Shown here piece after piece: positions 10,654 through 14,746 of a stretch of 64,000 nucleotides of DNA. The DNA lies in NCBI RefSeq assembly GCF_007990545.2, contig NZ_AP019829.2, positions 1,054,001 through 1,118,000 on the forward strand. The letters are read 5' to 3'. This DNA is from Leptotrichia wadei. Lineage in GTDB: Bacteria; Fusobacteriota; Fusobacteriia; Fusobacteriales; Leptotrichiaceae. The notes beneath the pieces were generated by a model, which was not told where the DNA came from, made no database searches, and worked only from the letters and a program-made list of their open reading frames with translations. The translations under genes were made by a program, and so were the position numbers. Numbering within the stretch: the stretch's first letter is position 1; each line of letters starts with the position of its first letter.

Positions 10654-10924
10654 TTTCAAATAATTAAAATAAACCTTCGCTTTTTAAACGAGGAATAGTA
10701 TAAACAGTAGTTTTCCTATAATTTTTATAAAATCTGATATGAAGTAATAATAATTATAGAATCAAAATATTATAAATACAAATATAAATAAAATATTTTT
10801 TTTGTGGACTTTTTATTATAATTGTGTAATAATTTAATGAAAACAAATTATGAATTTTTTCACAAATAAATTTAATTTAAAAAAGAAATTTTTATAAAGA
10901 TAAAAAAATTAGTAGAAAGGAGAT

Positions 10925-10944
10925 GTGATAAGTTATCTTATCAC
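10925..10944 (+). promoter_or_regulatory. Perfect hairpin between Shine-Dalgarno and start of the FNT gene
   Basis: GTGATAAG, loop TTAT, CTTATCAC: an 8-bp perfect inverted repeat. AAAGGAG ends at 10922, three bases before it, and the ATG of the FNT gene is at 10955. With the hairpin folded, the ribosome site is 12 bases from the start; unfolded it is 32 bases away. It could be a translational control element or a DNA operator. Confidence 0.6.
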
Positions 10945-10954
10945 GATATGAAAA

Positions 10955-11716
10955 ATGAGAAATAATCAAACTTTGGAACAAGTGTCAAATGTTGCAGAAA
11001 GTAAGGTTCAGTTGCTAAAAAATTCTAAGGGGAAATATTTTTTATCGTCATTTATGGCTGGGATGTTTATTGAATTGGGGATTTTATTGACGTTTACGGT
11101 TGGAGGAGTTAGCAGTGGATTGCCAACTAATAAAATTCTTATGGGAGTCAGTTTTGGGATAGCACTTAGTCTTGTAGTTGTGTTTGGAACGGAGCTTTTT
11201 ACGGGAAATAATATGATTGGAGTAACAGGGATGCTAAATAAGGCAATAACTTTTAAAGATATGATCTTTATGTGGATAGCGGCTTATATTGGAAATATTG
11301 TTGGATCAGTTGTACTTGCCATTATATATGTTTTTTCAAATTCTGCTTCAAAGTCTGTTGTAGATTTTATTGTGAAAGTTTCAAAGGCTAAAGTTGCAGC
11401 TCTACCGCAAGAATTGTTTTTTAAAGGAATTTTATGTAATATTTTAGTATGTCTTGCTGTTTTGGCTGGAATAAAATTAAAGGAAGAAACTGCTAGGCTG
11501 ATAATGGTTTTTTGGTGTCTTTTTGCATTTATCACTGCTGGATTTGAGCATAGTGTTGCTAATATGACGCTTTTAATGATGGGAATTATGTATAAAGGAA
11601 TTACTTTGAATGGATATTTCTATAACTTGCTGTTTGTAACTTTGGGAAATATTGTTGGTGGAGGCTTTATTGGGTATGCCTGTTATTATTTGGGGAAAAA
11701 GGAAATAAAAAAATAA
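10955..11716 (+). CDS. Formate/nitrite transporter family channel, probably hydrosulfide channel
   Basis: A 253-residue polytopic membrane protein of the FNT family with about six helices. Family features: the GMFIELGILL first helix, ELFTGNNM (the usual LFTGN pore motif), and GFEHSVANM (usual GFEHSVANM/pore His). FNT channels carry formate, nitrite, lactate or hydrosulfide. In Clostridioides difficile an FNT member beside asrABC was shown to conduct HS-, and the same neighbourhood here makes export of sulfide, the product of AsrABC, the likely role. The start is set by MRNNQ at 10955; an ATG at 10948 is out of frame and stops after five codons. Confidence 0.9.
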   Translation: MRNNQTLEQVSNVAESKVQLLKNSKGKYFLSSFMAGMFIELGILLTFTVGGVSSGLPTNKILMGVSFGIALSLVVVFGTELFTGNNMIGVTGMLNKAITFKDMIFMWIAAYIGNIVGSVVLAIIYVFSNSASKSVVDFIVKVSKAKVAALPQELFFKGILCNILVCLAVLAGIKLKEETARLIMVFWCLFAFITAGFEHSVANMTLLMMGIMYKGITLNGYFYNLLFVTLGNIVGGGFIGYACYYLGKKEIKK

Positions 11717-11791: not shown

Positions 11792-12856
11792 ATGAAAATT
11801 AGCTTAAATCGTGAAAATTTTAATTCAGCACTTGAAAAGCTGAAGAGAGAGTATAAAATATATGCCCCAATTGAAATACCATTTCGTGGGACATTTTCAG
11901 ATACTTCTGTAATTAGATATTCTGAAATTGACAAGATTGAAGAGATATGTTTTGATAAAAAATCTCATTTTTCAGCAAAGGAAGTAATGCTGCCAATAAC
12001 ACAGACAATGTTTTACTTTACAGAAGATGGATGTACAATGCCTAAAGAGCAGAATGAAAAGTATCTTATTTTTCTTAGAAGCTGTGATTTACATTCCGTA
12101 AAGAGAGTCGATGAAGTCTATTTAAATAACAAATTTTTGGATATTTACTATAAAAGAGTAAGGGATAAAGTAAAATTTGTAGTATTTGGATGTCCAAATT
12201 CGTTTGAAAACTGTTTTTGTGTGGATATGAAGACTAATAAGACTGATGAATATAATATTGGGATAAAAGTTACAGATGATAAAGTATTTGCTGATATAAG
12301 AGATGATGAATTAAAGGCATATTTTGATGAAGTTATTTCTGAAAATAAGGAAAATAGTAAAGTAAATGAAAATGTAGAATTTGAAATGGAATTTGTGGAA
12401 GATAATGAAATTCATGTAGATATTCCAGATAACATTGAACTTTCCGATATTATAAATTTAGATTTATGGCGTGAATATGATAGCCGTTGTATTGCCTGTG
12501 GAAAATGTAATTTCGTTTGTCCAACTTGTACTTGTACGACAACGCAAGATGTTTTTTACAGTGAAAATGACAATAATGGAGAGCGAAGAAGAGTGTGGGC
12601 TTCGTGCCATGTAAATGGGTTTACTGATATGGCTGGTGGACATTCGTTTAGACAAAGACATGGAGATAGAATGAGATTTAAAGTTATGCATAAAATTTCT
12701 GACTTTAAAAAGAGATTTGGCTATCAAATGTGTACGGGATGTGGACGATGTGATGATGCTTGTCCTGAATATATTTCATTTTCAAATTGTATAAACAAAC
12801 TAAGTGCGGAATTAAAAAGAATTTCAGCTGAAAAAAGAGGTGAAAAATCAGAATGA
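11792..12856 (+). CDS. asrA: Anaerobic sulfite reductase subunit A
   Basis: Iron-sulfur subunit of the dissimilatory/assimilatory anaerobic sulfite reductase. The 354-residue product has an N-terminal region rich in conserved Cys (LRSCDLHSVKRVDE, FGCPNSFENCFCVD) and two ferredoxin-like clusters, CIACGKCNFVCPTCTC and CTGCGRCDDACPEYISF, near the C-terminus. It passes electrons toward the siroheme subunit. AGGAGG at 11782-11787 favours the ATG at 11792 over one at 11765. Its TGA overlaps the ATG of asrB (ATGA), so translation is coupled. Confidence 0.95.
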   Translation: MKISLNRENFNSALEKLKREYKIYAPIEIPFRGTFSDTSVIRYSEIDKIEEICFDKKSHFSAKEVMLPITQTMFYFTEDGCTMPKEQNEKYLIFLRSCDLHSVKRVDEVYLNNKFLDIYYKRVRDKVKFVVFGCPNSFENCFCVDMKTNKTDEYNIGIKVTDDKVFADIRDDELKAYFDEVISENKENSKVNENVEFEMEFVEDNEIHVDIPDNIELSDIINLDLWREYDSRCIACGKCNFVCPTCTCTTTQDVFYSENDNNGERRRVWASCHVNGFTDMAGGHSFRQRHGDRMRFKVMHKISDFKKRFGYQMCTGCGRCDDACPEYISFSNCINKLSAELKRISAEKRGEKSE

Positions 12857-13725
12857 ATACTAATACATTAAATACAATAAATATAGATGAGCAGGATATA
12901 ATAGATATGAATGTATACTTGCCAACTGTTCACAAACTTTTATTCATTGAAAAAGTTACAGAGCTGGAATGGCTATTTCGTGTAGAATATAAAAATGGAA
13001 AAGTAAATGCTGGGCAGTTTATGCAAGTTTCGTTGCCAGGAGTTGGAGAAGCTCCTATTTCTGTTGCGAATTTTAACTTAGAGGAAGGATATCTTGATTT
13101 TTTGATTAGAAAAGTTGGGAAGGTTACAGATAAAATTTTTGAATTAAAGGCAGGAGATAGAATTTTTTTAAGAGGTCCTTATGGAAATGGATTTCCGATT
13201 GAGGAATATAAAAATAAACATATTGTAATGGTTGTTGGAGGAAGTGGAATTGCACCAGTTCGTCCGATTATTGAATATTTTACAAAACATCCTGAAGAAA
13301 TGAAGTCTTTTAAAATAATTGTGGGTTATAAAAATTATGAAAGTGTTATTTTTGAAAAAGAATTTTTACGTTGGAGAAAAAATATTGAAATCTTAGTCAC
13401 TTTGGACAATGCTGAAAGTGCAAGAAATTTAGGAAAAACGGAAAATGAATTTCACGAAGGAATGGTGACTAAATATATCCCAGATTTGAAAATTGAAAAT
13501 ATGAATGAAACCGAGTTTATTGTAGTGGGACCGCCAATAATGATGCATTTTGCCTGTCTTGAAATTTTGAAATTAGATGTGCCGGTTGAAAAAATATGGG
13601 TTTCATTTGAGAGAAAAATGTCGTGTGCAGTTGGGAAATGCGGACATTGTAAAATTGATGAAACGTATATCTGCTTAGAAGGACCTGTATTTAAGTATGA
13701 TAAAGCACAAAAATTGTTGGATTAA
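12853..13725 (+). CDS. asrB: Anaerobic sulfite reductase subunit B
   Basis: FAD/NAD(P)H-binding electron-transfer subunit, 290 residues. An N-terminal flavin-binding barrel (GQFMQVSLPGVGEAPIS, IRKVGKVT, LRGPYGNGF) is followed by a nucleotide-binding domain (VVGGSGIAPVRPI, FIVVGPPIMMHF) and a C-terminal 2Fe-2S motif, ERKMSCAVGKCGHCKID with a later Cys in YICLEGP. It accepts electrons from NADH and hands them to AsrA/AsrC. It overlaps asrA by four bases and precedes asrC by 43 bases, in the usual asrABC order. Confidence 0.95.
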   Translation: MNTNTLNTINIDEQDIIDMNVYLPTVHKLLFIEKVTELEWLFRVEYKNGKVNAGQFMQVSLPGVGEAPISVANFNLEEGYLDFLIRKVGKVTDKIFELKAGDRIFLRGPYGNGFPIEEYKNKHIVMVVGGSGIAPVRPIIEYFTKHPEEMKSFKIIVGYKNYESVIFEKEFLRWRKNIEILVTLDNAESARNLGKTENEFHEGMVTKYIPDLKIENMNETEFIVVGPPIMMHFACLEILKLDVPVEKIWVSFERKMSCAVGKCGHCKIDETYICLEGPVFKYDKAQKLLD

Positions 13726-13768: not shown

Positions 13769-14746
13769 ATGAGTATGGATTTAAATAGAAAAGTTGTTAC
13801 AAAAAATGCATATAGGGTGACAAAAGATAGATCAAAAACTGCACTTCGTGTAAGAGTCCCAGGCGGAGCAGTTACAGCGGAAATAATGGGCTTAGTTGCA
13901 GATATAGCAAATACTTACGGAGACGGAAATGTGCATATTACAACTCGTCAAGGATTTGAAGTTTTGGGAATCAATTGGAAGGACATTGAAAAGGTCAATA
14001 AAATGGTTCAGCCAATTATGGAAAAATTGGATATTAATTACAAGGATAAAGATAAGGGATATGCAGCTGCAGGGACAAGAAATGTAGCAGCTTGTATTGG
14101 AAACAAAGTTTGTCCAAAAGGGGCTTACAACACAACTGAACTTGCAAAAAAAATAGAAAAAGCGATTTTTCCAAATGATTTTCACTTCAAAGTAGCCCTA
14201 ACTGGCTGTCCAAATGATTGTCAAAAAGTAAGAATGCACGATTTTGGAATAATCGGAATGGCAAAGCCTGAACTAGATGAATCAAGATGTGTTTCGTGTG
14301 GAATGTGTGAAAGAAAATGTAAAAAATTGTCAACAGGAGCAATTTCATATAAAAATTATAAACCTGTGAGAGATCATCAAAAATGTATTGGCTGTGGTGA
14401 ATGTGTTTTAAACTGTCCGACAGGTGCATGGACAAGATCGCCTAAAAAATATTATAAACTTGCGATAATGGGAAGAACCGGAAAGCAAAATCCAAGACTT
14501 GCTGAAGATTGGCTATTTTGGGCAGATGAAGAGTCAATAATAAAAATTATGAAAAATACCTATGAATATGTTGACAAATATATTGATAGAAGCCTCCCAA
14601 AAGAGCATATCGGTTATATTGTTGACAGAACTGGATTTGAAGAATTTAAGAAATGGGCTTTAAAAGGTGTAAATTTACCTGAAGAAACCGTTATGGTAAA
14701 TAATATTTATTGGGGAAATGGTATAAAATATCAAGGAATATTATAA
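13769..14746 (+). CDS. asrC: Anaerobic sulfite reductase subunit C, siroheme catalytic subunit
   Basis: Catalytic subunit reducing sulfite to sulfide by six electrons. It carries ITTRQGFEVLG, the siroheme/4Fe-4S motif split as CIGNKVC (C-X5-C) and TGCPNDCQK (C-X3-C), and a ferredoxin domain with CVSCGMCERKCKK and CIGCGECVLNCPTGAW. Length 325 residues matches the family. A clear GAAAGAAGG precedes the ATG. Together with FNT, AsrA and AsrB it forms a complete sulfite-to-sulfide pathway including product export; a small acidic gene follows after 30 bases. Confidence 0.96.
   Translation: MSMDLNRKVVTKNAYRVTKDRSKTALRVRVPGGAVTAEIMGLVADIANTYGDGNVHITTRQGFEVLGINWKDIEKVNKMVQPIMEKLDINYKDKDKGYAAAGTRNVAACIGNKVCPKGAYNTTELAKKIEKAIFPNDFHFKVALTGCPNDCQKVRMHDFGIIGMAKPELDESRCVSCGMCERKCKKLSTGAISYKNYKPVRDHQKCIGCGECVLNCPTGAWTRSPKKYYKLAIMGRTGKQNPRLAEDWLFWADEESIIKIMKNTYEYVDKYIDRSLPKEHIGYIVDRTGFEEFKKWALKGVNLPEETVMVNNIYWGNGIKYQGIL

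Follow-up and report, generated by a model that had tools for sequence, protein, structure and literature searches.

Hairpins between the Shine-Dalgarno sequence and the start codon probably bridge the ribosome-binding site of an FNT-asr operon and of unrelated genes in Leptotrichia and related genera

In the leader of an FNT-asr operon of Leptotrichia, a hairpin stands between a strong Shine-Dalgarno (SD) sequence and a start codon that lies far outside the usual distance from it. We propose, with a probability of about 0.75 and by analogy with phage T4 genes 25 and 38, that this leader contains a hairpin-bridged ('split') ribosome-binding site and is one case of a general device. The leader lies within the 64,000 nucleotides of genomic DNA that were analysed (the window), whose Leptotrichia source genome is G000 below; its FNT protein is 83-84% identical to those of L. 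hongkongensis and oral taxon 879 relatives. Sequence comparison established the hairpin, its placement between SD and start, selection for pairing, its presence or absence at orthologous genes, and the recurrence of GTRTGAT/ATCATAC arms.

The SD sequence of the window leader, TAGAAAGGAG (10913-10922, on the + strand like all window features described here), includes AAAGGAG at 10916-10922 and is complementary over 10 nt to the end of the 16S gene, GGATCACCTCCTTTCTA. Folding placed the left arm of the hairpin, GTGATAAG, at 10925-10932, a TTAT loop at 10933-10936 and the right arm, CTTATCAC, at 10937-10944, and position 10924 is able to add a U-G pair with 10945 at the stem base. An unpaired linker of 10 nt (10945-10954) leads to the ATG at 10955-10957; an in-frame TGA two codons upstream (10949-10951) makes 10955 the earliest possible start in this frame. 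SD and ATG are 32 nt apart, and in the folded leader they are separated by 12 unpaired nt, namely 2 nt after the SD and the linker. The perfect 8-bp stem (10925-10944) that the first-pass annotation had described between AAAGGAG and the FNT ATG was thus borne out by sequence and fold; the MFE and centroid structures of a 141-nt piece both contain it. That piece as a whole was not unusual in its folding (z -0.96). The 32-nt spacer had a dG of -9.6 (z -4.1), with 1 of 500 dinucleotide shuffles folding as well, and its stem length was equalled by 45 of 3000 mononucleotide shuffles. The exact palindrome was found once in the window, and Rfam 15 returned no match above the gathering score in the window or in 13 further loci.

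The gene behind the hairpin (10955-11716), the first of the operon, encodes an FNT-family transporter whose best profile, TIGR00790, scored 188.5 bits against a cut-off of 232.3. It is followed by asrA (11792-12856), asrB (12853-13725) and asrC (13769-14746), which passed the NCBIfam cut-offs of TIGR02910, TIGR02911 and TIGR02912, respectively. The earlier gene naming therefore held in outline, with 'sulfide channel' being a label drawn from the position of the FNT gene. A consensus scan predicted a promoter-like site at 10805-10833 (TGGACT, 17 nt, AATAAT, with TG before AATAAT), and this block upstream of the hairpin was kept in 10/10 genus genomes aligned. Transcription starting downstream of the hairpin, which had been named as an outcome that would count against its role, thus looks unlikely. 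Just 3' of the promoter-like site, the block GAATTTTTTCACAAA (10852-10866) was conserved in all 10 genus FNT leaders aligned; this GAAATTTTTCACAA-type block may be an operator or a 5' end element. Pairing of a TTTTTCAC block with the left arm, considered by eye for the window, was rejected because the arms of other species would not permit it. Among other features of the locus, the FNT gene before asrABC is broken into two frames in G004 and has an internal TGA in G006. The AsrA alignment spans 386 columns in G001, G005, G007, G008, G009 and G011 versus 354 residues in the window, with an insertion of ~32 residues in these six genomes.

A search in front of the asr operons of relatives, as had been suggested, showed that 9 of the 13 genus genomes have a hairpin in the same position (G000, G002, G003, G005, G007, G008, G009, G010 and G011). 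The arms varied among GTGATAAG/CTTATCAC, GTAATAAAA/TTTTATTAC, GTAATAAAA/TTTTGTTGC and GTAACAAAA/TTTTGCTAC, the differences including compensatory and G-U changes, and the loops measured 4-8 nt. Whole-leader MAFFT alignments misplaced the arms as loops differ, and pair counts were therefore run on arms with the loops removed and with the identical arms of G010 and G008 entered once. In the resulting 8 distinct rows, 94.4% of cells were paired (slid controls, 39-75%) and 3/9 pairs had changed on both sides, figures that are biased towards pairing since each arm was taken from the fold of its own sequence. The exceptions were an innermost pair open in three rows and one A-C mismatch in G011, whose stem is weak (dG -2.8, with 75/500 shuffles equally good). 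The compensatory and G-U changes and the variable loop support, by comparison, selection on the FNT stem as RNA.

Six folded FNT leaders left 11-13 unpaired nt between SD and ATG. The G001 leader, which has no hairpin, spaces them by 13 nt, close to what hairpin leaders show once the hairpin is folded away; the other leaders without a hairpin (G004, G006 and G012) have 7 nt. On an asrABC tree, G001 was nested among hairpin-bearing genomes, with weak support nearby (47-71), so the hairpin was likely, though not provably, lost in G001.

The same layout, with an SD, a hairpin 0-6 nt later, a further 7-13 nt and an ATG, was found in G000 at typA, adk, mnmG, pheT, a CoA-disulfide-reductase-like gene, a dicarboxylate/glutamate-type symporter gene and an RND pump gene. 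These seven cases were traced in all 13 genus genomes, and the hairpin was present in 10/13 for each of typA, mnmG, adk and the CoA-disulfide-reductase-like gene, in 6/13 for RND and in 3/13 for pheT; among the 13 genomes searched, the symporter gene was found in 7, all with the hairpin. Orthologues without the hairpin mostly had their SD at an ordinary distance. The spacing was not always tight, with typA having about 16-18 nt from SD to start in the three genomes that do not carry its hairpin (G004, G006 and G012). Pairing was kept while RND arms varied (GTACGGTTA/TAATCGTAT, TACACGAT/ATCGTGTG and CATGCGATT/TAGTCGTGTG), and mnmG retained its outer stem while its spacer grew from 40 to 58 nt through an inner hairpin. 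The symporter-like and CoA-disulfide-reductase-like names rest on profile matches below cut-off, and the RND, pheT, NUDIX, FadA-like, RlpA-like and glycosyltransferase names used here are presumed from our reading of the sequences. An SD-hairpin-ATG arrangement was also seen in G000 before ftsZ and before genes for a FadA-like small protein, an RlpA-like protein, a response regulator and a glycosyltransferase.

Outside the genus, adk loci were taken from 17 family genomes. Five (G017, G019, G021, G022 and G026) carried the hairpin, 11 lacked it and had their SD at the ordinary distance, and one was not parsed. The five leaders read GAAAGGAG, a hairpin of 7-12 outer pairs with unrelated sequence, 7-11 nt, and ATG. 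With identical rows entered once, 15 genomes gave 8 distinct rows; across their seven outer pairs, 56/56 cells were paired and 7/7 pairs had changed on both sides, versus 18-50% paired in slid controls; the arms were picked from each fold, and the 100% pairing is partly by construction. As an independent measure, the five non-genus adk spacers were each more stable in folding than 494 to 500 of 500 shuffles.

We surveyed 1.264 Mb (54%) of G000 for leaders that lack an ordinary SD but carry a distal one, and that fold so as to leave <=16 unpaired nt between SD and start. At dG <= -6, 17 leaders were found versus 4.05 in shuffles (largest of 20 shuffles, 7), and at dG <= -4, 22 versus 9.15 (largest of 20, 13). 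A 400-kb sample of G012 gave a small excess (6 versus 2.9, largest shuffle 6, at dG -4; 3 versus 1.15, largest 3, at dG -6). The same survey of a 400-kb sample of G005 gave none (4 versus 4.6 at dG -4; 3 versus 2.45 at dG -6) and missed the G005 typA case, although that gene lies within the sample. Loci from other phyla (464 kb) showed no clear excess (5 versus 4.45 and 4 versus 2.95). Due to the weak or absent excess in G012 and G005, some of the 17 G000 leaders are to be regarded as chance. In an early version with another start filter, in which leaders were selected by stem length, there was no excess at >=6 bp (13 versus 10.2, largest shuffle 15); the counts were 11 versus 4.25 at >=7 bp and 7 versus 1.65 at >=8 bp. 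Two further early versions likewise used other start filters: one covered 362 ORFs and gave 16 raw matches, two of them without an ordinary SD (FNT and typA), and another counted 9 leaders versus 4.85 in shuffled sequence.

Ordinary SD-ATG spacing in the window genome is mostly 5-12 nt. The unfolded distances of hairpin leaders, 27-58 nt, fall outside this range, whereas 29 leaders, once folded, had 7-15 unpaired nt between SD and ATG, mostly within or near it. This difference, together with the same arrangement in T4 genes 38 and 25, is the basis for reading the element as a bridged site. In such a site, the 30S subunit would bind the strong SD TAGAAAGGAG, the hairpin would fold out so that about 12 unpaired nt instead of 32 separate SD and ATG, and the shortened distance would make initiation possible at 10955. 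We infer that folding would permit or raise translation and that the device would set a basal level rather than respond to sulfide. The window leader would then be one instance of a device employed at unrelated genes in Leptotrichia and related genera. Of the translation control by RNA structure envisaged by the first-pass annotation, the part that stands is a stem selected as RNA and placed where it would restore a near-normal SD-ATG distance. Control specific to sulfide or to asr by a bound regulator is not supported, the layout being found at unrelated genes, and since these genes have no common pathway, there is no case for a sulfide-specific switch.

The hairpin arms also recur in sequence. 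The pattern AAGGAGN{0,2}RYRYGATN{2,24}ATCRYRY, written from the first cases, had 56 matches in 25/33 family genomes versus 1 for a reversed control, and the motif was present in 8/11 genera. Thirteen matches had already been seen (9 CoA-disulfide-reductase-like, 2 RND and 2 adk) and 43 were new. In 55/56, all 7 positions formed standard pairs, where we reckon that the pattern by itself would give 32%. The commonest arms were GTATGAT and ATCATAC (among 48 unique matches, 23 begin GTATGAT and 28 end ATCATAC), and loops ranged from 3 to 24 nt. The window hairpin (ATGTGAT...ATCACGA) matches the pattern except at the outermost pair. A start codon followed the motif after 8-11 nt in 16/16 matches whose surroundings were read, of which 13 had helped to frame the pattern, one was a second copy of one place, and two were new; one of these stands before a gene whose product resembles, by eye, a NUDIX hydrolase, the other before a distant FNT gene of G025. 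Judged from coordinates, G016 and G031 too have matches immediately 5' of FNT genes. A closely similar long-loop copy, which encloses a short ATG ATT TTT ACR stop frame, was observed in seven Leptotrichia genomes (G005:C1:1118302, G007:C1:900388, G009:C5:482009, G011:C15:7460, G003:C1:1156580, G010:C69:288966 and G002:C1:1273145).

This recurrent arm sequence exceeds what bridging alone requires. The shared arms might reflect a general factor, temperature or an exchange with the end of the 16S, any of which would account for them. The hairpins could be a regulated switch, in which the GTRTGAT/ATCATAC hairpin responds to a trans-acting factor (an RNA-binding protein or helicase) or to temperature, which would set the SD-ATG distance and co-ordinate many genes. 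The non-random arms and the breadth of the motif across genera are consistent with this explanation, and the stems are AT-rich (dG about -3 to -17), so that temperature could matter. However, the symporter and typA stems, the adk stems within the genus and 6/9 FNT stems do not fit the motif and nonetheless keep their place, the loops vary from 3 to 24 nt, and the genes have no common pathway; we consider a switch of this kind unlikely, if worth bearing in mind.

The hairpin could instead serve mRNA stability or processing, or be a drifting insertion, with its placement between SD and ATG incidental. Its presence does vary between orthologues, and over the 75 nt compared G006 and G000 have the same pheT leader, although the N-terminal parts of their PheT proteins are only 86% identical, so this leader was likely transferred. 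Incidental placement is nevertheless improbable, because the hairpins of many genes keep to within a few nt of the SD and their pairing is under selection. In a viral contrast with a stricter pattern, only 6 of 69 matching contigs had a start codon 6-12 nt 3' of the stem, versus the 16/16 read matches here; we read these viral matches as chance and discarded a phage origin.

Small reading frames inside the leader offered a further explanation, in which ribosomes begin at an ATG or GTG in the hairpin, stop immediately and re-initiate at 10955. Sequence comparison identified a start-stop, ATGTGA (10923-10928), right after the SD, and an ATG that meets a stop within two codons stands at this position in 9/9 hairpin-bearing FNT leaders. 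Similar start-stops were observed in mnmG leaders (ATGTAA/GTGTAA) and pheT leaders (GTGTGA). These codons lie 0-4 nt from GGAG, whereas used starts here mostly lie at 5-12 nt, and the adk and symporter hairpins carry no start-stop. ATGTGA itself is probably not a used start, since it is 0-1 nt from GGAG. The 8-codon GTG-started leader frame reported earlier does exist (10925-10951) but is not conserved, being kept in 3/9 hairpin-bearing genus genomes with GTA in the other 6, and control by such a leader peptide was rejected on that account. Altogether, we regard start-stop or leader-peptide control as very improbable.

That the hairpin is a DNA operator, bound by a transcription regulator of the asr operon, is scarcely credible: a perfect palindrome does lie 3' of the promoter-like block, but its loop differs by up to 4 nt among orthologues (the 4-8 nt of the FNT leaders suit RNA, not an operator) and spans 3 to 24 nt across the motif matches, G-U pairing is retained, its position is tied to SD and ATG, and the layout recurs at unrelated genes. 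For the same variation in arms and spacing, in place of half-sites of fixed spacing and sequence, a transcription-factor operator was set aside, and variable spacing between the arms ruled out a Fur-like box. A strict arm search of the 13 genus genomes returned the asr sites and a few other palindromes but no regulon; a backward control gave similar numbers, and this search says little.

The bridged-site reading has its closest parallel in phage T4, where, in the account given in PMC3014915, folding cuts the SD-AUG distance from 22 to 5 nt in gene 38 and from 27 to 11 nt in gene 25, and mutations that weaken the structure reduce initiation. The gene 25 hairpin is kept in close relatives and missing in distant ones, according to the same account (PMC3014915). 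As in the T4 split sites so described, the Leptotrichia leaders have a strong SD too distant from the start codon and an intervening hairpin whose folding shortens the distance, from 32 to 12 nt in the window. The 32-nt separation exceeds the usual 5-12 nt and there is no nearer SD; the hairpin lies wholly between SD and start and brings the distance back towards the usual range; and it is kept by pairing in relatives, weakly so at the FNT gene of G011. Unlike those of T4, the Leptotrichia cases are chromosomal, occur at several unrelated genes and across genera, share arm sequence, and are known here from their sequence.

Other structured leaders differ more. In E. coli thrS, the hairpin comes before the SD-AUG region and sets it apart from a single-stranded ribosome contact further 5', rather than lying between SD and AUG. 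The ribosome is said, in the part of PMC3936740 on this split ribosome-binding site, to accommodate the long hairpin without unfolding it. SD-sequestering riboswitches and thermometers also place structure at the translation initiation region, whereas in the Leptotrichia leader neither SD nor start codon falls within the stem, and there is no Rfam match. Structured RNAs 5' of Leptotrichia genes have been described as the manA-II and fhsA motifs, from a 50-genome screen including L. buccalis, but as presented in the relevant sections of PMC11109978 these are multi-stem elements with terminators, not SD-start hairpins. Our searches of open-licence papers returned the T4 and thrS accounts but no example from a bacterial chromosome of an SD-start hairpin recurring at several genes, and a word search of the initiation review PMC4611024 returned no passage on such hairpins under the terms searched. 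Apparently, the trick has so far been described mainly from phage T4; here it would be in recurrent use at unrelated bacterial genes.

The shared arms allow a more speculative reading, to which we give only a small chance: that AAGGAG-N(0-2)-GTRTGAT-loop(3-24)-ATCATAC-N(8-11)-start is a recognisable, family-wide initiation module in which the hairpin is an active ribosome docking element and not just a spacer shortener. The left arm resembles the next part of the 16S complement, AGAAAGGAGGTGATCC, and for this reason the arms may exchange with the 16S rRNA 3' end or be held by a dedicated factor. If true, the module would set the expression of many housekeeping genes, with the asr leader as one member. 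An SD some 5-10 nt from the start codon is a rule built into gene finders and RBS calculators, and start codons of hairpin-bridged genes may be misannotated. In a family of bacteria where several genes, adk included, have foldable inserts of 20-50 nt between SD and start, orthologues with and without the insert form natural pairs, and these would make it directly testable how the 30S subunit accommodates structure between the SD and the P site.
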